Below, in pieces: positions 10,005 to 59,625 of a stretch of 64,000 bases of DNA (the stretch's first letter is position 1; the number at the start of each line of letters is the position of its first letter). The notes under the pieces are model-generated. The model saw only the letters and a program-made list of their open reading frames with translations, did not search any database and was not told the DNA's origin. The position numbers and the translations under genes were made by a program. The stretch comes from Gordonia oryzae (GTDB lineage: Bacteria > Actinomycetota > Actinomycetes > Mycobacteriales > Mycobacteriaceae), in the NCBI RefSeq assembly GCF_003797185.1, contig NZ_RKMH01000001.1, positions 186,001-250,000 on the forward strand. Reading direction: 5' to 3'.

Positions 10005-10173
10005 GCTGGCGTCGCCTTTCGCCGTGTACCGGGTCCGAGAACCCAGACCTGGGTGGTCGTGAATCATAGCGCAGTGGCGCTCGTTCCTGTGCGACGGGTG
10101 CACCCGCTGCACCGCATAGGTGGAACACCGTACTGGTTGGGTCCGCGACCCTCGTGCTAGCGTCGATATGTAA

Positions 10174-10322
10174 GTTCTCGGGGCGGGGTGAAACTCCCCA
10201 CCGGCGGTGATGGTGTCGCATAGGCGATACCGAGCCCGCGAGCGCCCGTCCAGCTGTGGACGGGGACAGCAGATTCCGGTGCGACTCCGGAGCCGACGGT
10301 CACAGTCCGGATGCGAGAGAAC
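10174..10322 (+). promoter_or_regulatory. FMN riboswitch (RFN element)
   Basis: Matches the RFN consensus: closing stem GTTCTCG with CGAGAGAAC, then GGGGCGGGGTGAAACTCCCC, ACCGGCGGTGAT, and near the 3' end GATTCCGGTGCGACTCCGGA, GCCGACGGTCACAGTCCGGA. It senses flavin mononucleotide and lowers expression of the downstream riboflavin genes when FMN is plentiful. Confidence 0.96.
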
Positions 10323-10339
10323 AAGACGGTCCTGCGCCG

Positions 10340-52765: not shown

Positions 52766-54313
52766 TCAGACGTTCGAGGGCCAATACGCCTTGCGGAGAA
52801 TGCCTTTCACGAGTTTGCCGGTGGGGGTCCGGGGGAGTTCGTCGACGAAGTCGACCGATCGGGGCACCTTGTAACCCGCGATCTTCTCGCGGGTGAAGTC
52901 GAGTAACTCGGTTGCGAGCTCATCGGACGGTGAGAACTCGGGCGCGAGTTGGACACACGCCTTGGCGATCTCGCCGAGTTCGGGATCGGGGACGCCGATC
53001 ACACCGGCATCGAACACTGCGGGATGGGTGACGAGGACGTTCTCGGCTTCCTGCGGGTAGATGTTGACCCCGCCGGAGATGATCATGAAGGCCTTGCGGT
53101 CGGTGAGGTAGAGGTAGCCGTCCTCGTCGACGAAGCCGACGTCGCCGGTGGTCGACCAGTTGTCGTGTGCGGGGTGCCGCGCTTGCGCGGTCTTCTCCGG
53201 GTCGTTGTGGTACTCGAAGACGGCCTCCTCGCGCTCGAAGTAGACCAGTCCGACCTCGCCGGTGGGCAGATCGTTGCCGTCCTCGTCGCAGATGTGCACC
53301 ACGCCGAGTAGTGGCTTTCCCACCGAACCGGGATGATCCAGTGCCTCCTGGGGTCCGATGAACGTGGCTCCGGCCGACTCGGTGGAGGCGTAGTACTCGT
53401 GGACTACCGGGCCCCACCACTCGATCATGGCGCGCTTGACCTCGGCCGGGCAGGGCGCAGCGGCGTGAATGGCGACCTTCATGCTCGAGACGTCGTACCG
53501 GGAGCGGGCCTCTTCGGGCAATTTCAGCATGCGGATGAACATGGTGGGCACCCACTGGCTGTGGGTGACGTGGTAGGTGTCGATGAGTCGCAGCGCCTCT
53601 TCCGGATCGAAGCGGTCCATGAACACCACGGTGCCGCCCACCGAATTGGTGATTCCGCAATACCGCAGTGGCGCAGCGTGATACAGCGGCGCAGGGGAGA
53701 GGTAGACGGAGTTCTCGTCGAATGCGTACATCGGGGCGAACACCGCGGTGTAGGCGTCGGGGATCTCGTCGACCTGACCCTGCGGCAGTGGGGTCTGGAT
53801 TCCCTTGGGCCGTCCGGTGGTTCCCGACGAGTAGAGCATGTCGGTGCCGCGCGGCTGGTCGGTTCGCGGCTGTGACGATGCGCTCGCGAGGACCTTCTCG
53901 TACGAGTCGAAGTCGGGCAGTTCGCCACCCCAGACGAGTCGGTGCCCGGGTGCGGCGAGGGCGGGGAGTTCACCCGCACGCTCGAGGGCGTGCGCCACCG
54001 AGGCCCCCGCAAAGACCACCTGCGTGTTGGAGTCGGAGAGAATGTAATTGGTCTCCTCGGCTGTCAGGTGATGGTTGATCGCGGTCACGTACATGCCGCT
54101 GCGCAGCGCTGCCCAGTAGACCTCGAAGATGTGCAGGTCGTTCTCGGAGACCACGGCGATTGCATCCCCGGGCTTGAGGCCGAGGGATTGGAGATGATTG
54201 GCCAGGCGAGTGGAGTTCTCGTCGAGTTCTCGGTAGGTCAACTGCTCGCTGGTCGAGGCGCGGATGACGGCGGGCTTGTCGGGGGTACGGGCGGCGAAGA
54301 CTCCAGGGAACAC
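52766..54313 (-). CDS. Acyl-CoA synthetase (FadD-like, AMP-binding)
   Basis: A 515-residue adenylate-forming enzyme that activates a carboxylic acid to its CoA thioester. P-loop-like MLYSSGTTGRPKGIQTPLPQ near 160, HEYYASTESAGATFIG near 305, GDVGFVDEDGYLYLTDRKAF near 390-409 with the hinge Asp/Arg, and the C-terminal catalytic Lys in PRTPTGKLVKGILRKAYW near 500. It resembles mycobacterial FadD enzymes of medium/long-chain or aromatic type; the exact acid is unknown. A TetR-type operator lies 40 bases upstream. Convergent with ABC-F. Confidence 0.92.
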   Translation of the reverse strand: MFPGVFAARTPDKPAVIRASTSEQLTYRELDENSTRLANHLQSLGLKPGDAIAVVSENDLHIFEVYWAALRSGMYVTAINHHLTAEETNYILSDSNTQVVFAGASVAHALERAGELPALAAPGHRLVWGGELPDFDSYEKVLASASSQPRTDQPRGTDMLYSSGTTGRPKGIQTPLPQGQVDEIPDAYTAVFAPMYAFDENSVYLSPAPLYHAAPLRYCGITNSVGGTVVFMDRFDPEEALRLIDTYHVTHSQWVPTMFIRMLKLPEEARSRYDVSSMKVAIHAAAPCPAEVKRAMIEWWGPVVHEYYASTESAGATFIGPQEALDHPGSVGKPLLGVVHICDEDGNDLPTGEVGLVYFEREEAVFEYHNDPEKTAQARHPAHDNWSTTGDVGFVDEDGYLYLTDRKAFMIISGGVNIYPQEAENVLVTHPAVFDAGVIGVPDPELGEIAKACVQLAPEFSPSDELATELLDFTREKIAGYKVPRSVDFVDELPRTPTGKLVKGILRKAYWPSNV

Positions 54314-54353
54314 GATCTCTCCTCATCGGCGATGACAACTGTCAGCAAGGTTA

Positions 54354-54373
54354 TACCGAGCGCTCACTCGGTA
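54354..54373. promoter_or_regulatory. TetR-type operator before the acyl-CoA synthetase
   Basis: Perfect inverted repeat TACCGAG-CGCTCA-CTCGGTA, 41 bases upstream of the acyl-CoA synthetase start. Two 7-bp arms and a six-base spacer are typical for fatty-acid-responsive TetR repressors. No TetR gene is adjacent (the nearest is acnR, whose operator differs), so the regulator would act from elsewhere. Confidence 0.6.
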
Positions 54374-55211
54374 AGGGAAATCTGTCCGGATGGCGCGAAT
54401 CCGGTTATCGTCGTCACCTACCATTCGAGGTCCGCCTTCGGGGCGCGCCGGTGGAGCACGTCGACGGGGTCGAGGTGCCGCTGCTGCCACGAGCCCCGCT
54501 GATGCGTCTGTGTTGCTCGCCGATGGCGGAGGTGGTGCCGACGATCATTGACGATCTGTGGCACCAGAGCCCGCCACGGAAGATCGCGGGAACCCCGCAG
54601 TCTCACGTGTCGACACGTCGCGGCGTTCTCGAGTCGGCTGACGCACAGAAGTCGCCGGAAGCGTTCCCCACCGGAAGCGGTCACCGTTTCGTTCATCCCT
54701 GGCGATGCGGTGGATGCCAATATCTATGCCGGACAAGCGCAGCGTGAGAACCCGCTGCACGAGTCCGGTGGCGCCGAGGTGCACGCTGTCGACGACCAAC
54801 CTCGCCGCGACGGGTGCCAGTGGCGACCACGAGTCGGTCTTCGCCGAGTTGTCCGCCCTCCTGCGTGCCGATCCGCTGTGGGAGATGCGCTGTGGGAGAT
54901 GCGCTGTGGGAGATGCGCTGGGAACAGCTCGCTTCGACGCAGTACGGGCGCGGGTCGGCAGGCGCAGCCAGTGGAGAAGCCTGCGGACTGCGCGCGGCGT
55001 GCCCGCCGACATCGAGGGGGTCACCGAGCATCCGGGCGACCGTCGGCGTGAAACGGCGTCGTGTGCAGGCCGCCCGATCACATCGGGTGGGGAGTGCGAA
55101 TCCGTCGAAGGTCGTTGCGGAAGTAGCGATGGCCGGTGTCGGACACCGCCGCGATCGCCATCACCACCGAAGACGGGGGCGGCAGGTGTGACTCGTTGAG
55201 ATCGCGGCGGA
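54374..55211. other. Decayed non-coding stretch
   Basis: About 840 bp with no intact gene on either strand. Plus-strand fragments in shifting frames (RLRGAPVEHVDGVEVPLLPR near 54430, PEAVTVSFIPGDAVDANIYA near 54670, SVFAELSALLRADPLWEMR near 54835-54890) look like a pseudogene of unknown family, interrupted by a 14-bp triplication. Confidence 0.45.
54875..54916. repeat. Triplicated 14-bp tandem repeat
   Basis: GCTGTGGGAGATGC three times in a row, followed by a partial GCTGGGA. The unit is not a multiple of three, so each copy shifts any reading frame through it. It lies in the decayed stretch where the frame reads LRADPLWEMR. Confidence 0.9.
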
Positions 55212-56246
55212 TCACGAGCGGCCCGACCACCGCACGGCGGTCGCGGCGGCGAAATCGCCGGCGTGAGCGAAGGCCGCCATCATGATCACATCCGAGTCGC
55301 GTAGGCGGCCACTGTCGATCAGTGCGTCGAGTGTCATCGGGATGCCCACGGCGAACAGGTTGCCGCACTCATCGAAGGTGTCGGGATGCCGCTCGGCCGG
55401 AAGTTCCAGAGCTTCACGCCAATTGCGTAGAAAAATCCGGTTGGGTTGGTTGGTGATCAACCAGTCGAGATCGCGGGGCCGGATGTCGATGGCCGTGGCA
55501 GCATCGATCGTCACCTCAGGGACGAGCCGATTGCCTCGAGTGAGCACCTTGGTGATCTTGGACTCGGTGAAGCCGACGTGGATCTGCCCGGGTCCCGATT
55601 CCCAATACTTGCGGGCCGGTTCGGACACCGCGGTCATGTCCGCCGAATACTCACCGTACGAGCGGCACAGCGTGGTCAGTATTGGATTGGCACCGTCGCC
55701 GAGCATCAGGGTCGCGACCGCCGCGCCGTCGCCGGGGATGGCGGCCTGCGCCTTGGTGCGTACCTGCTCCTGGGTGAAGATCTGTCCGGCACTGTTCTGG
55801 GCCAGGGCGAGCAGTGCTGTGCCACCGCCGCGGGCGCGCAGCAGCGCTCCGCCGACCTCAATCATGTGCAGGAACGCCGCGCATCCACCGTTGTGCACAT
55901 CGAGGACCGTGGCGGGGTGCAGCCCCAGACGGTGGGCCAGTTCGCCCGCGCATCCGCGTACCGGAACCTCGGGCAGTTGGCTGTGGGTCACCACGATGTC
56001 GACGTCGTCGAGATGACCGGCGCCGTGACGCGCGATGAGGCGTTGTGCCGCAGCCACCATCATGTCGGCGTTGGACTCGTCGGCCCCGGCGTGATGGCGA
56101 TGGGCCGGTGCGCGGAACATGACGTTGTCGGCGAGCTCGTCATCCTGCGCGAACTGCGCGAAATAGGCAGCCGATACCCGATTCTCGGGTCGATAGGTGG
56201 CGATGTCGCCCAGGCACAGTCCGCCGGGGAGGTCGGCGGCGATCAT
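55212..56246 (-). CDS. 3-oxoacyl-ACP synthase III (KAS III)-like protein
   Basis: A 344-residue thiolase-fold protein. DVDIVVTHSQLPEVPVRGCA near 81 and LDVHNGGCAAFLHMIEVGGA near 115 carry the nucleophile Cys122 in the FabH context (family DVNAGCSGF). The normal catalytic His (HQAN in FabH) is replaced: DWLITNQPNRI has Asn266. The third residue Asn296 is kept in ECGNLFAVGIP. A Cys-Asn-Asn set argues against ordinary decarboxylative condensation; acyl transfer or another reaction is more likely. ATG 56246 overlaps the SRPBCC stop. Last gene of a four-gene operon. Confidence 0.88.
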   Translation of the reverse strand: MIAADLPGGLCLGDIATYRPENRVSAAYFAQFAQDDELADNVMFRAPAHRHHAGADESNADMMVAAAQRLIARHGAGHLDDVDIVVTHSQLPEVPVRGCAGELAHRLGLHPATVLDVHNGGCAAFLHMIEVGGALLRARGGGTALLALAQNSAGQIFTQEQVRTKAQAAIPGDGAAVATLMLGDGANPILTTLCRSYGEYSADMTAVSEPARKYWESGPGQIHVGFTESKITKVLTRGNRLVPEVTIDAATAIDIRPRDLDWLITNQPNRIFLRNWREALELPAERHPDTFDECGNLFAVGIPMTLDALIDSGRLRDSDVIMMAAFAHAGDFAAATAVRWSGRS

Positions 56247-56908
56247 GAGGTCATCCACTCCGGGGTCAGCGGCAGGCCGATGCGATGGCGGTGTTCGGCA
56301 ATGGCGGTCAGGTTGTCGAGTTCGATCTGGTGGCCGGCGGCAAACATGTCCCACAGATCGCCGACCCACTCCTCGCGACCGGCCGGAACGGTGTCGGGGA
56401 AGGGGTTGCGGTCGTAGAACGGATGCCGGCAATTTGTCCACAGCACGACTGATCCCGGCCGGTTCAGCACGAGTTGAGCGTCGACGACCCGCATCAGATA
56501 GATCATCCACAGGTGATCGGGTTGGTCCCAGGCACAGTGGTAGTCGACGGTCATCGCGCCTGGGTCGGCGATGGTGCGGACATAGATGGCGGTGTCGGTG
56601 TTGAGGCGGTCGGTACCGACCCACAGCTCGGCGGTCTCGGTTTGGCGCAGATCCCTTGTGCTGTAGGTCCATTCCTCCAGCGACCTGGTGTCGCAGAGCC
56701 ACTCGAACAGCTCTCGCGGAGGTGCGTCGACGTATCCGTGCACGGTGCAGAACTCGCCATAGATCTGATCGTGCGGATACACCGACCGCACCCGGTCGAC
56801 AATCATCGGGGTGCTCTGTGCACGCGAATGCGTCTCGACCCGGATGACGCCGGGTAATGGCTCGGAGGGATCGAGGTCGGAGAGAGCGCCGGTGGGATCG
56901 GTGGTCAT
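56243..56908 (-). CDS. SRPBCC (START-like) domain protein
   Basis: A 221-residue protein. After a short tail the helix-grip fold runs from about residue 40: GEFCTVHGYVDAPPRELFEW then LCDTRSLEEWTYSTRDLR, and later DYHCAWDQPDHLWMIYLMRV and SVVLWTNCRHPFYDRNPFPD, with a C-terminal helix SELD-like IELDNLTAIAEHRHRIGL. Such folds bind hydrophobic ligands and include polyketide cyclases/aromatases. It sits between a TPP-like mini protein and a KAS III-like protein, with four-base overlaps on both sides, so it probably handles an acyl or polyketide-like intermediate (inference). ATG 56908 is set by the overlap. Confidence 0.85.
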   Translation of the reverse strand: MTTDPTGALSDLDPSEPLPGVIRVETHSRAQSTPMIVDRVRSVYPHDQIYGEFCTVHGYVDAPPRELFEWLCDTRSLEEWTYSTRDLRQTETAELWVGTDRLNTDTAIYVRTIADPGAMTVDYHCAWDQPDHLWMIYLMRVVDAQLVLNRPGSVVLWTNCRHPFYDRNPFPDTVPAGREEWVGDLWDMFAAGHQIELDNLTAIAEHRHRIGLPLTPEWMTS

Positions 56909-57309
56909 CGGAGTCCTCTGGCTAGTGGATGACACGGCGGGGTCGCGTCGGGATCGGTGTCGACGACGAGGCACGCGGGACCGGGCCGGGTGAGTACGTC
57001 ACTGGTGGCGGCGTCGAGGTCGCGCGGATCGGTGACCCTCCGAACCCGCAGGTCGGGAAACATCGCTGCGAGACCGACGGCGATGTCGGTGGGACCGAAG
57101 GCGTTGAGCCCCGGCGTGTCCGGGGAGCACATCTGTGTCCGGGTGCCACACATGCCGTGGCCAGAACGCGTCAGGCCGACGCGAACGGCCGCGTCGAAGA
57201 GTTCCTCGATGTTCGCCTCGCGCACGCCGAAGGTCGACGTGATTCCTGCGGCGTGCAGGCGCTCGACGATGTGGTCGGCGACCTTGGGGTCCCGACATCG
57301 AGTGGTCAT
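56905..57309 (-). CDS. Miniature TPP-enzyme-like protein
   Basis: A 134-residue protein. Residues 9-45 (KVADHIVERLHAAGITSTFG then VREANIEELFDA) look like the beginning of the pyrimidine domain of acetolactate-synthase-type enzymes (normal VFGVPGANI). Residues about 50-130 (CSPDTPGLNAFGPTDIAVGL, then RRVTDPRDLDAATSDVLTR, PGPACLVVDTDPDATPP) look like the end of their TPP-binding domain. The roughly 400 residues between, with the cofactor-binding GDG...N motif and the catalytic Glu, are missing, so it cannot be an ordinary TPP enzyme. It keeps normal codon use and start/stop overlap with its neighbours. Internal-deletion relic or a new small protein. Confidence 0.7.
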   Translation of the reverse strand: MTTRCRDPKVADHIVERLHAAGITSTFGVREANIEELFDAAVRVGLTRSGHGMCGTRTQMCSPDTPGLNAFGPTDIAVGLAAMFPDLRVRRVTDPRDLDAATSDVLTRPGPACLVVDTDPDATPPCHPLARGLR

Positions 57310-57314
57310 TGCGG

Positions 57315-58961
57315 TCAGCGGGTGCTCAGGAAACGATCCAAGGTGCGTTCGGCGAGTGCGGTGATGGTCAACGACGGATTGACCAATCCCACCGCGCCCG
57401 GCGCGAACGAGCCGTCGACGACATAGAGGTTGTCATAACCGCGGATGCGGCCGTCGGCGTCGGCGGCCTGCCCGACAACGACCCCGCCGAGCCCGTGGAA
57501 TGTTGCGCCGGAACCGAATCCGGAGCGCCGGTCGTAGATCGGGATGCCGTTTGCCGGGTGGCCGAACCGCGTCTCGGTCCGCTCATGGAAATGCTGGGCG
57601 AAGGCGATCGCCTGCCGGTCCAGGACGCTGGAACCTTCGGCGTACGGGTAGTTCAGCTGCGTCGCGCCGGTGGAGTGGTCGTAGTCAATGGTGCCGCGCT
57701 CGTCGGTGAGCACCTGGATCAGGTGCGTGGTCGCCAACGAGCCCGCTGGTGCGGGGAAGGGGCTGGCCTGATAGATCATCGTGGCCGGTCCACCGGGCAT
57801 CCGGTCCTCACGGATGCGGGCATAGCCAGGACCGCCCTGGATCGGCCCGTGCTGGTCACGGAGCGCGGTGCGCACGATCAGGAAGTCGCCGTTGCCGCCG
57901 AAGCCGTTGCCAATCTTGGGTGACAGCCGGGAGAGCGTGCCCTGTGCGCGGGCCCGCACCAACAGCGAGGTGGTGTGGTAGGAGCCGGCGGCCATGAAGA
58001 GGTAATCCGCTTCGGCGGTCACGATCCGCACCGTGCGCCGCGCGTCATCGATCAGTCGGGCCCGCACGACATAACCGGGCCGCCGTGAGCGTTCCCGGAT
58101 CTCGAAGACCTCGTGCATGGGTTTGATCGTCACAAATCCGGTCCGCTCGGCGGCCGGCAGGTAGTTGTGATCGACGGAGTTCTTGGCGCCGCTGTTGACG
58201 CCGTAGGACAAATCGCCGATCGAGACGCCGGGCTTGGCGCGTCCGGCAAGCTCGGCGCGCACCCGATCCCAGTCGATGGCGTACTCCACGAATTGCGGTG
58301 CGATTCCGTATCGTTCGAGGATTTTCAACCAGGAACGCGCGCCCACGTAATTGGGGTGGGCGAGGATGTCGTCGGGTAGGCCCGAGGTGTTCAACATCTT
58401 CCGGGCGCGGGGGAAATACTCGGCGGCGAGTTCGTCGTAGCCCATTCCACCGGGGAAAACGGTCTCGAAATCGGCCTTGTCGGGCTGGAGGGTGAACGCG
58501 CCGAACACCAGGGACCCGCCGCCGACGCCTGCGCCGTGCACCGACTCGATGCCGTTGCCGCGGATGGTGTCGAGAACGCCCGGATAACGCTGGGTGGGTA
58601 CCCGGCCGACGCTCGAGATCCCGGCGGTGTCATCGAACCAGGCGGCGCGCCGGTCTGGCCGGTCGAAGGTCGCGAAGGTATTACCGTCGGGTCGGATCGG
58701 CCACCGCCGCCCCCGCTCGAACACCGTGGTCGTAATTCCGGCCTCGCCCAGACGAAGTGCGGCCACCGCACCGCCGAAGCCGCTTCCGATCACAATCGCG
58801 GTGGCGCCGCTAGTAGGGGCTCCAGGTGCGGCCGATGCCGGTGTCCCCGACGGGAAACCGAGGCCGGCGGGCCCGAGCACGGCGGCGCCGAGAGCCCCGG
58901 CCCCGGCGCCGCGCAGCAAGGATCGTCGGCTGATCGCAGCCGAAGGCGAATCTGAACGCAT
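57315..58961 (-). CDS. Tat-exported GMC oxidoreductase, cholesterol-oxidase-like
   Basis: A 548-residue FAD enzyme of the Streptomyces/Rhodococcus cholesterol oxidase family (type I, non-covalent FAD). A twin-arginine signal with SRRSLLRGAGAGALGAAVL (11-29) is followed by an Ala/Pro tail, then the FAD loop AIVIGSGFGGAVAALRLGEA at 55-74, PDGNTFATF, HGAGVGGGSLVFGAF near 142, and the C-terminal FHGLGGVVVGQAADADGRI and GAVGLVNPSLTITALAE. Aligned with the Streptomyces enzyme, His447 and Asn485 correspond to His489 and Asn528, but Glu361 is Gln398. ATG 58961 is chosen because it gives the complete signal peptide. First gene of the four-gene unit, 61 bases after acnR. Confidence 0.9.
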   Translation of the reverse strand: MRSDSPSAAISRRSLLRGAGAGALGAAVLGPAGLGFPSGTPASAAPGAPTSGATAIVIGSGFGGAVAALRLGEAGITTTVFERGRRWPIRPDGNTFATFDRPDRRAAWFDDTAGISSVGRVPTQRYPGVLDTIRGNGIESVHGAGVGGGSLVFGAFTLQPDKADFETVFPGGMGYDELAAEYFPRARKMLNTSGLPDDILAHPNYVGARSWLKILERYGIAPQFVEYAIDWDRVRAELAGRAKPGVSIGDLSYGVNSGAKNSVDHNYLPAAERTGFVTIKPMHEVFEIRERSRRPGYVVRARLIDDARRTVRIVTAEADYLFMAAGSYHTTSLLVRARAQGTLSRLSPKIGNGFGGNGDFLIVRTALRDQHGPIQGGPGYARIREDRMPGGPATMIYQASPFPAPAGSLATTHLIQVLTDERGTIDYDHSTGATQLNYPYAEGSSVLDRQAIAFAQHFHERTETRFGHPANGIPIYDRRSGFGSGATFHGLGGVVVGQAADADGRIRGYDNLYVVDGSFAPGAVGLVNPSLTITALAERTLDRFLSTR

Positions 58962-59022
58962 ACTGTGAAGATAGCCACAAACTTCGGGTAGGCACACTTT
59001 TGCCAATCGAGGGTGATCTACA

Positions 59023-59625
59023 TCACAGGGTGGTGTTGCTGGTGGAGTCCGCGGGAGCGCCCCGCGCCATGCGGACCGACTCCTCGACGAGGTCGAGTAC
59101 ATCGTGGAGATCGTCGGTGGGCTGACCGGTTGCCAGCCGGGTGATGAGACCGTCCAGCACGAGGTCGAGATATTTCACCAGGACCTCCGTGGGCACATCG
59201 TCACGAAGCCGGCCAGAGGCCCGCCCGCGTTCGAGTCGGGCGAGCGTGGCCTTCTCCACATCCGCCGAGTGTGACATCCAGGCATCACGAAAACTCTTGT
59301 CCGTCCGTAACTTTCGTGCGATCTCCAGGCGCGTGCCGAGCCAGTTGAAATCCTGCGGGCGGGCCAGAACATCGCGCATCACCTGCACGAGGCCCTGTTC
59401 GGCGGCCACGTCGGCCATGCGCTCGGCGTCCTCGGACGCCAATGCCAGGAACAGTGCTTCCTTGTCGCGGAAGTGGTGGAAGATCGCACCGCGGGACAGT
59501 CCCGTCGATTCCTCGATGCGTTTGACGGTGGCACCGTCGTATCCGTACTCGGCGAAACAATGCCGCGCGCCGTCGAGGATCTCCCGACGACGCGCGGCAA
59601 GTCGGTCATCGCTGACCTTGGGCAC
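59023..59625 (-). CDS. acnR: Aconitase repressor AcnR, TetR family
   Basis: A 200-residue TetR protein directly after acn on the same strand, as in corynebacteria and mycobacteria (Rv1474c). Helix-turn-helix near 15-60 (GATVKRIEESTGLSRGAIFH HFRDKEALFLAL), then the conserved core RPQDFNWLGTRLEIARKLRT and KYLDLVLDGLITRLATGQ. In C. glutamicum AcnR represses aconitase and responds to citrate/isocitrate and Mg. Its operator is found at 62679-62694. GTG/ATG start read as ATG 59625. 30 bases after the acn stop. Confidence 0.92.
   Translation of the reverse strand: MPKVSDDRLAARRREILDGARHCFAEYGYDGATVKRIEESTGLSRGAIFHHFRDKEALFLALASEDAERMADVAAEQGLVQVMRDVLARPQDFNWLGTRLEIARKLRTDKSFRDAWMSHSADVEKATLARLERGRASGRLRDDVPTEVLVKYLDLVLDGLITRLATGQPTDDLHDVLDLVEESVRMARGAPADSTSNTTL

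Follow-up and report, generated by a model that had tools for sequence, protein, structure and literature searches.

A remnant of a probable carbazole-type operon in Gordonia oryzae and the branch of related gene cassettes

The sequence analysed here (the window) is a stretch of 64,000 nucleotides of Gordonia oryzae (RefSeq assembly GCF_003797185.1, contig NZ_RKMH01000001.1, positions 186,001 to 250,000); coordinates are counted from its first letter. Its minus strand carries an open reading frame (ORF) for a 548 amino acid (aa) GMC/cholesterol-oxidase-like protein with a twin-arginine translocation (Tat) signal (57315–58961), the 134-aa remnant of a thiamine diphosphate (ThDP) enzyme gene (56905–57309), a 221-aa CqsB2-like SRPBCC cyclase ORF (56243–56908), and a 344-aa ORF for a CqsB1/NzsJ-like condensing enzyme resembling ketoacyl synthase III (KAS III; 55212–56246). 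The oxidase ORF and the ThDP remnant are separated by 5 base pairs (bp; 57310–57314), the remnant and the cyclase ORF overlap by 4 bp, as do the cyclase and KAS ORFs, and a spacer of 61 bp (58962–59022) lies between the oxidase ORF and an acnR-like TetR regulator gene. The coordinates and spacings agree with a preliminary description of the locus as a four-gene operon, and its reading of a co-directional biosynthetic set in which an acyl-condensing enzyme accompanies a cyclase is supported. Two further genes had been missed: a HisC-like aminotransferase stub on the same strand (55078–55215; GTG start, 45 codons, with the stop past the break), whose start overlaps the KAS stop by 4 bp, and, on the plus strand, what remains of a SARP/AfsR-like (BTAD) regulator gene whose reading frame is broken (54302–55010). 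A promoter scan yielded no promoter.

The SRPBCC protein has a single significant match in the PDB by phmmer, CqsB2 (6ipv, E = 9.7e-47; the next match has E = 0.5). CqsB2 is also the top Foldseek match (6ipv, E = 2.9e-19) of its AlphaFold model (mean pLDDT 78.6); superposition of this middling-confidence model on 6ipv gave a root mean square deviation of 15.9 Å, and the family match alone is used here. CqsB2 is the carbazole synthase of Streptomyces exfoliatus, with Tyr144, Tyr172, His206, Glu209 and Glu105 named as residues of catalysis (PMC7466098). Four of the five are kept in the window cyclase (Tyr137, Tyr165, His193 and Glu196), and the fifth, Glu105, is replaced by Asp100. Its sequence thus makes the SRPBCC protein homologous to CqsB2.

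The catalytic triad of FabH and other KAS III enzymes is Cys-His-Asn. The window KAS retains Cys122 and Asn296 and has Asn266 (in the motif ITNQPNR) at the FabH His position, so that the Cys-His-Asn set of the CqsB/Nzs pathway is altered by Asn in place of His. When one genome was scanned for each species, 485 loci with a relative of the cyclase were found, and the best 80 by similarity were kept, a choice that biases the genus mix towards near relatives: the Asn motif is present in 79 of these 80 loci and His in none (the KAS gene of L126 is frame-broken). The alignments (127 KAS, 19 oxidase and 128 cyclase rows) include same-genome duplicates from two collections; counts out of 80 loci are from one collection.

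Cassettes with this cyclase fall into two types. Type I (six loci: L108, L211 and L225–L228) has the order KAS-cyclase-ThDP, the KAS motif HQPN and cyclase Glu105; three of its loci (L225, L226 and L227) have an additional FabH-like KAS. Type II has the order ThDP-cyclase-KAS, usually with an aminotransferase gene, the KAS motif NQPN and Asp at cyclase position 105; in L006 the type II genes stand in a different order, and L133 contains a pair of KAS genes of this type. The KAS His and the cyclase Glu occur together in all six type I rows, and every type II cyclase row compared has Asp. In a KAS tree of 34 chosen rows, the type I sequences are set off by a branch with support of 96/95 and the type II sequences by one with weak support (71/93; recovered in 74% of bootstrap trees), the FabH-like rows being separate from both (100/100). 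Within the loci compared, the KAS His-to-Asn and cyclase Glu105-to-Asp changes mark a branch, type II, and not decay. The preliminary description had called both recognisable enzymes catalytically altered. The substitutions are real (Asn in the KAS, Gln in the oxidase, as described below), but they are neither breaks nor unique to this strain; since the Asn motif is common to type II, the KAS is typical of its branch. Changed catalytic residues were accordingly rejected as signs of decay, the same changes being conserved across the branch. Streptomyces piniterrae (G059) carries both a type I (L211) and a type II (L212) cassette, approximately 140 kb apart.

In the two nearest genomes (G031, with L068, and G030, with L069), the same site holds genes for aconitase, TetR, the oxidase, a full-length ThDP enzyme, the cyclase, the KAS, the aminotransferase and FadD. 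A full-length ThDP gene in this arrangement is also found in L070. Where L068 has 1282 bp of ThDP gene, the window has 10 bp (57160–57169, minus strand): the net loss of 1272 bp, or 424 codons, is in frame, and the remaining protein retains approximately 46 N-terminal and 84 C-terminal residues of the enzyme. The region of the catalytic Glu and the GDG...NN cofactor motif have been removed (these alignment columns are empty in the window row), and the motif is kept in L068, in L069 and in a second cassette of the genome to which the window belongs. The aminotransferase ORF is intact in L068 and L069. The regulator, which lies on the opposite strand ahead of FadD, is a 944-aa open frame in L068 with a full-length 90% match in L069; its remnant in the window contains a 14-bp tandem repeat of three units (54870–54920, no strand).

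Read in this way from the sequence, the 134-aa protein arose by deletion within a full-length ThDP gene, and in the window copy both this gene and that for the aminotransferase are dead. The preliminary description had noted that its miniature thiamine pyrophosphate (TPP)-like protein lacks a core, which is correct as to the missing motifs; the loss, though, is an in-frame deletion in this strain, and the protein is not a part in its own right. No mini-ThDP protein was found in other species among the loci fetched, so the four-gene set with this protein is seen only here, and what recurs in related Gordonia is the order oxidase-ThDP-cyclase-KAS-aminotransferase. A four-gene pathway with a functional miniature TPP protein would fit the tight overlaps and the frame that stays open through the deletion, but the absence of the ThDP-binding and catalytic motifs, the full-length gene in L068, L069 and L070, and the relaxed selection described next lead us to reject the functional mini-protein and make such a pathway the least probable of the explanations considered. 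Another decaying cassette, L189 (G019), has a ThDP fragment beside the oxidase in a genome with no cyclase match.

The pairwise ratio of nonsynonymous to synonymous substitution rates (dN/dS, or w) between the window and L068 is 0.076 for the oxidase, 0.078 for the cyclase and 0.086 for the KAS, values not higher than those of the L068–L069 pair (0.096, 0.221 and 0.129, respectively). For the 121 surviving ThDP codons, w is 0.55 against L068 and 0.33 against L069, compared to 0.13 for the L068–L069 pair. Window-specific changes, defined at sites where L068 and L069 agree, comprise 21 nonsynonymous and 11 synonymous in the stub (121 codons) versus 27 and 128 in the three intact genes (1100 codons; Fisher p = 1.4e-7). 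The right piece of the stub without its junction-adjacent codons has 9 nonsynonymous and 6 synonymous changes (p = 7e-4). Compared to the ThDP gene's own L068–L069 background, the stub differs with p = 0.026 (whole gene) or 0.012 (same codons), and in the three intact genes the window-specific changes lean, if anything, further towards synonymous than those of the L068–L069 pair (p = 0.03). Selection on the ThDP stub thus looks relaxed, and purifying selection still acts on the genes for the oxidase, cyclase and KAS. This difference speaks against an assembly error. The genome is a draft of 30 contigs, and an artefactual mini-ThDP gene in an operon that is intact in the living strain was considered for that reason; however, both flanks of the junction have many changes relative to L068 and L069, and the aminotransferase and regulator genes are broken too, which renders an artefact very improbable.

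Contig C10 of the same genome carries an intact ThDP-cyclase-KAS-aminotransferase cassette (L008) in which the motifs are kept. Its cyclase is 72% identical to that of the window, and its aminotransferase is intact and HisC-like (best score with HisC models). A response regulator and a sensor kinase gene adjoin this cassette (L008 6825–8930); the two-component pair recurs in Gordonia and Williamsia stretches that hold C10-type cassettes. Such a system is also present in the fetched stretch of one contig labelled Acidobacteriaceae, and the response regulator was found in 39 loci overall, duplicates included. The cyclase tree omits L105 and L106, in which the cyclase gene is frame-broken or cut, as well as L107 (own copy). 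In this tree the window sequence lies among oxidase-linked Gordonia sequences that form a grade, not one supported clade. It falls outside a branch of 101 rows (100/98) that holds the C10 copy together with Nocardia, Tsukamurella, Mycobacterium, Rhodococcus and Williamsia sequences. The cassette of a contig labelled Acidobacteriaceae (L115) is placed beside Tsukamurella rows, possibly owing to a binning error.

A cyclase match is present in 34 of 59 Gordonia genomes (the copies in G003 and G005 are broken or cut). The 39 Gordonia stretches with a cyclase (L068–L106) include a ThDP gene in 37 cases, a KAS gene in 38 and an aminotransferase gene in 36, with a few genes in pieces, and the usual order is ThDP-cyclase-KAS-aminotransferase. 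This order recurs in many Mycobacteriales, and with the oxidase in front in related Gordonia. For the best 80 of the 485 loci, the fetched stretch holds a ThDP gene in 78, a KAS gene in 80 and an aminotransferase gene in 70; these loci are mostly from Nocardia and Gordonia, and also from Tsukamurella, Mycobacterium/Mycolicibacterium, Rhodococcus, Williamsia and others. Among 397 genomes drawn evenly from the order to which the window belongs, 41 have a match, counted regardless of type, and just four of the 41 lie outside the window's family; among Streptomyces genomes the count is 25 of 295. Clustering of the flanking ORFs led to nothing usable, as reading-frame calls in DNA this rich in GC are noisy. 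Other decaying cassettes, with a split KAS frame or a broken or cut cyclase gene, are L126 and L100 (Gordonia sp. ABSL1-1), L105 (G005) and L106 (G003).

The oxidase has a twin-arginine start (...ISRRSLLRG...), which supports the Tat signal claimed in the preliminary description, and the second Arg of the pair is present in 18 of 19 cassette-linked oxidase rows. It shares with cholesterol oxidase the GMC sequence family and the active-site His and Asn. It differs in having Gln at the position aligned with Glu361 of that enzyme, and in its score with the NCBIfam equivalog CholsOxChoxAB, 107.8 bits against a cut-off of 850, so that it is not identified as a cholesterol oxidase. The Gln occurs in 18 of the 19 rows, or 12 of 13 without duplicates (L076 has His), a count that describes cassette-linked oxidases and not stand-alone ones. 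Homologues of at least 61% identity are found in 31 of the 59 Gordonia genomes: 28 have both oxidase and cyclase, three the oxidase only, six the cyclase only and 22 neither (Fisher p = 6e-8, not corrected for kinship, with the cyclase fragments of G003 and G005 scored as present). In G012, G032 and G048 the oxidase adjoins the cassette, and the stretch fetched there contains neither an aconitase nor a FadD gene. As an exported enzyme, it may possibly act on the product.

The neighbouring genes are not specific to the cassette. The acnR-like TetR gene (59023–59625, minus strand) is a conserved neighbour. FadD4-like acyl-CoA ligase (52766–54313, minus strand) is a Gordonia neighbour gene that was rejected as a cassette member: 56 of the 59 Gordonia genomes have such a ligase at E <= 1e-170. 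Elsewhere in the window, an FMN riboswitch (RF00050) was detected at 10170–10326 (plus strand, 97.9 bits).

We consider it probable that the unit in the window is the eroded remainder of a carbazole-type operon of the type II branch, once composed of oxidase, ThDP enzyme, CqsB2-like cyclase, KAS III-like enzyme and aminotransferase genes beside a SARP-type regulator gene, and that its cyclase, KAS and oxidase are fed from the C10 cassette. In the known carbazole pathway, an aminotransferase yields indole-3-pyruvate. CqsB3/NzsH, the ThDP enzyme, links this to pyruvate, after which CqsB1/NzsJ, the KAS III-like enzyme, attaches an acyl chain as CO2 is lost, and ring closure is left to CqsB2/NzsI (PMC7466098). 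By homology, the HisC-like aminotransferase would form an aryl pyruvate, the KAS III-like enzyme would condense the product of the ThDP enzyme with an acyl thioester, again with loss of CO2, and the cyclase would close a new ring to give a carbazole-type product. The three window enzymes would probably receive their precursor from the ThDP enzyme and the aminotransferase encoded in the intact C10 cassette, and the presence of that cassette makes such feeding in trans plausible.

A competing explanation is that the locus is a dying duplicate, in which the remaining genes are functionless, their low dN/dS predates the loss, and all product comes from C10. Three of the six genes at the site are broken, the dead regulator holds a tandem repeat, the intact C10 copy makes this one dispensable, and the stub is only moderately relaxed relative to its own gene's background, so the loss may be recent. 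Against this stand the 21 nonsynonymous changes in 121 stub codons compared to 27 in 1100 codons of the intact genes, and the w of the latter, which is not raised relative to the L068–L069 pair, their window-specific changes being if anything less nonsynonymous. The same three genes have also been retained in Gordonia effusa (L079/L117), where oxidase, cyclase and KAS genes are kept, the ThDP and aminotransferase genes are missing and a second, full cassette (L098) is present; this loss appears to be separate from that in the window strain. We therefore regard a dying duplicate as a serious possibility, but not the favoured one.

Several observations weigh against the reading of the window unit as a selected remainder of a carbazole-type operon. 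The type II KAS lacks the type I His and is just 23–30% identical to the type I rows; because of this divergence, the substrate and product may differ. Apart from L225–L227, no second FabH-like KAS was found in 130 loci (duplicates included) at E <= 1e-10, type II included. Lone or scattered type II pieces exist, such as L099, a cyclase gene with no ThDP, KAS or aminotransferase gene nearby. In 16 Gordonia genomes (L190–L205) the oxidase gene is flanked by acnR and fadD and no cassette was seen at that place, although the contig of G050 ends just beyond FadD, where a cassette is possible, and the oxidase gene is in pieces in G005 and G051; since the oxidase also occurs alone beside acnR, its membership of the cassette is uncertain, and it is doubtful that it is an obligate cassette gene. 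Even where it is whole, the ThDP gene changes more quickly than the genes around it (w = 0.25 for L068–L069), and this background accounts for part of the contrast between the stub and the neighbouring genes. Finally, a window-type copy is present in 15 Gordonia genomes, seven of which also have another copy: the ThDP and aminotransferase genes have been lost in two of the seven genomes with a second cassette and in none of the eight without, which would occur by chance approximately 20% of the time. A tie between this loss and a second cassette is suggestive, not significant.

With respect to the product, lipocarbazoles carry a long chain. Tsukamurella pseudospumae Acta 1857 is reported to make lipocarbazoles, called 3-oxygenated (cited in PMC7466098), and according to the same review the machinery for mono-oxygenated carbazoles is still to be identified. 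The genome of another strain of this species, JCM 13375 (L174/G060), has a single cyclase match, which is of type II. Type II is therefore, by analogy, a candidate for 3-oxygenated carbazoles, and a 3-oxygenated alkyl carbazole would be its likeliest product; no gene-product link for lipocarbazoles was found in the literature searched. A TrpB-like gene is present within the fetched stretch in six of seven Tsukamurella loci, and no aminotransferase match was found in the Tsukamurella stretches.

The same carbon-carbon chemistry could instead act on another aryl pyruvate, such as phenylpyruvate, and give naphthalene- or scytonemin-like rings. The coupled switch of KAS His to Asn and cyclase Glu105 to Asp would be consistent with a non-carbazole product, as would the aminotransferase, which scores best with HisC models and is uninformative on Trp. 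A weak similarity of the window cyclase to the NCBIfam model of the scytonemin cyclase ScyC (24.9 bits against a cut-off of 400, so not identified as ScyC) points the same way. However, CqsB2 is the strong match of the cyclase, TrpB-like genes accompany six of the seven Tsukamurella loci and T. pseudospumae is a reported carbazole maker (PMC7466098), and we judge a non-carbazole product to be rather unlikely. More speculatively still, type II could be the machinery for 3-oxygenated (mono-oxygenated, lipocarbazole-like) bacterial carbazoles, with the KAS and cyclase switches altering acyl choice and ring closure. Two Gordonia lineages might then have trimmed one cassette to its product-deciding half (oxidase, cyclase and KAS) that shares the acyloin supply of the other cassette, so that a single genome would turn one precursor into a pair of related products.

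The question of mono-oxygenated carbazoles becomes directly testable with this defined cassette of four genes, which differs from the classical type in two paired active-site switches and is present in the lipocarbazole species. A natural experiment is offered by the window as well, where selection on the cyclase and KAS has outlasted their own precursor enzymes. No recognisable description of the cassette in Gordonia, Nocardia, Mycobacterium or Tsukamurella was found in the open-access literature searched. The preliminary description had judged the set not to be a known pathway; its core corresponds to the CqsB/Nzs carbazole pathway (PMC7466098, PMC10100901). Overall, this is a known kind of pathway in a widespread variant for which no description was found, represented here by a copy that is dead in part, with selection still acting on the enzymes that remain.

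Like the carquinostatin and neocarazostatin cores of Streptomyces (CqsB1/B2/B3/B7 and NzsJ/I/H/D), the type II cassette encodes together a CqsB2-homologous cyclase, a KAS III-like partner, a ThDP enzyme and a HisC-like aminotransferase. It differs in gene order (ThDP-cyclase-KAS-aminotransferase, as opposed to KAS-cyclase-ThDP), in the KAS Asn and cyclase Asp, and in that no second FabH-like KAS was seen, a comparison in which Streptomyces loci, an Embleya plasmid and the CqsB2 chain stand in for the named clusters. The window copy differs further in its dead ThDP and aminotransferase genes: both are stubs, whereas the C10 copy has the GDG...NN motif and an intact HisC-like gene. Clusters homologous to the carbazole set have been named in Streptomyces cattleya, Sorangium and Scytonema (PMC7466098). 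The chlocarbazomycin cluster of Streptomyces tubbatahanensis (chlCz1-7) likewise encodes a HisC-like aminotransferase (chlCz1), a ThDP protein (chlCz2), a KAS III (chlCz3), an SRPBCC protein (chlCz5) and FAD oxidases, and differs in its acyl carrier protein, SDR enzymes and halogenase (PMC10100901). In terms of protein families, the trio of ThDP enzyme, cyclase and KAS together with the HisC-like aminotransferase corresponds to nzsH/I/J/D and to chlCz2/5/3/1 (PMC10100901, PMC7466098).

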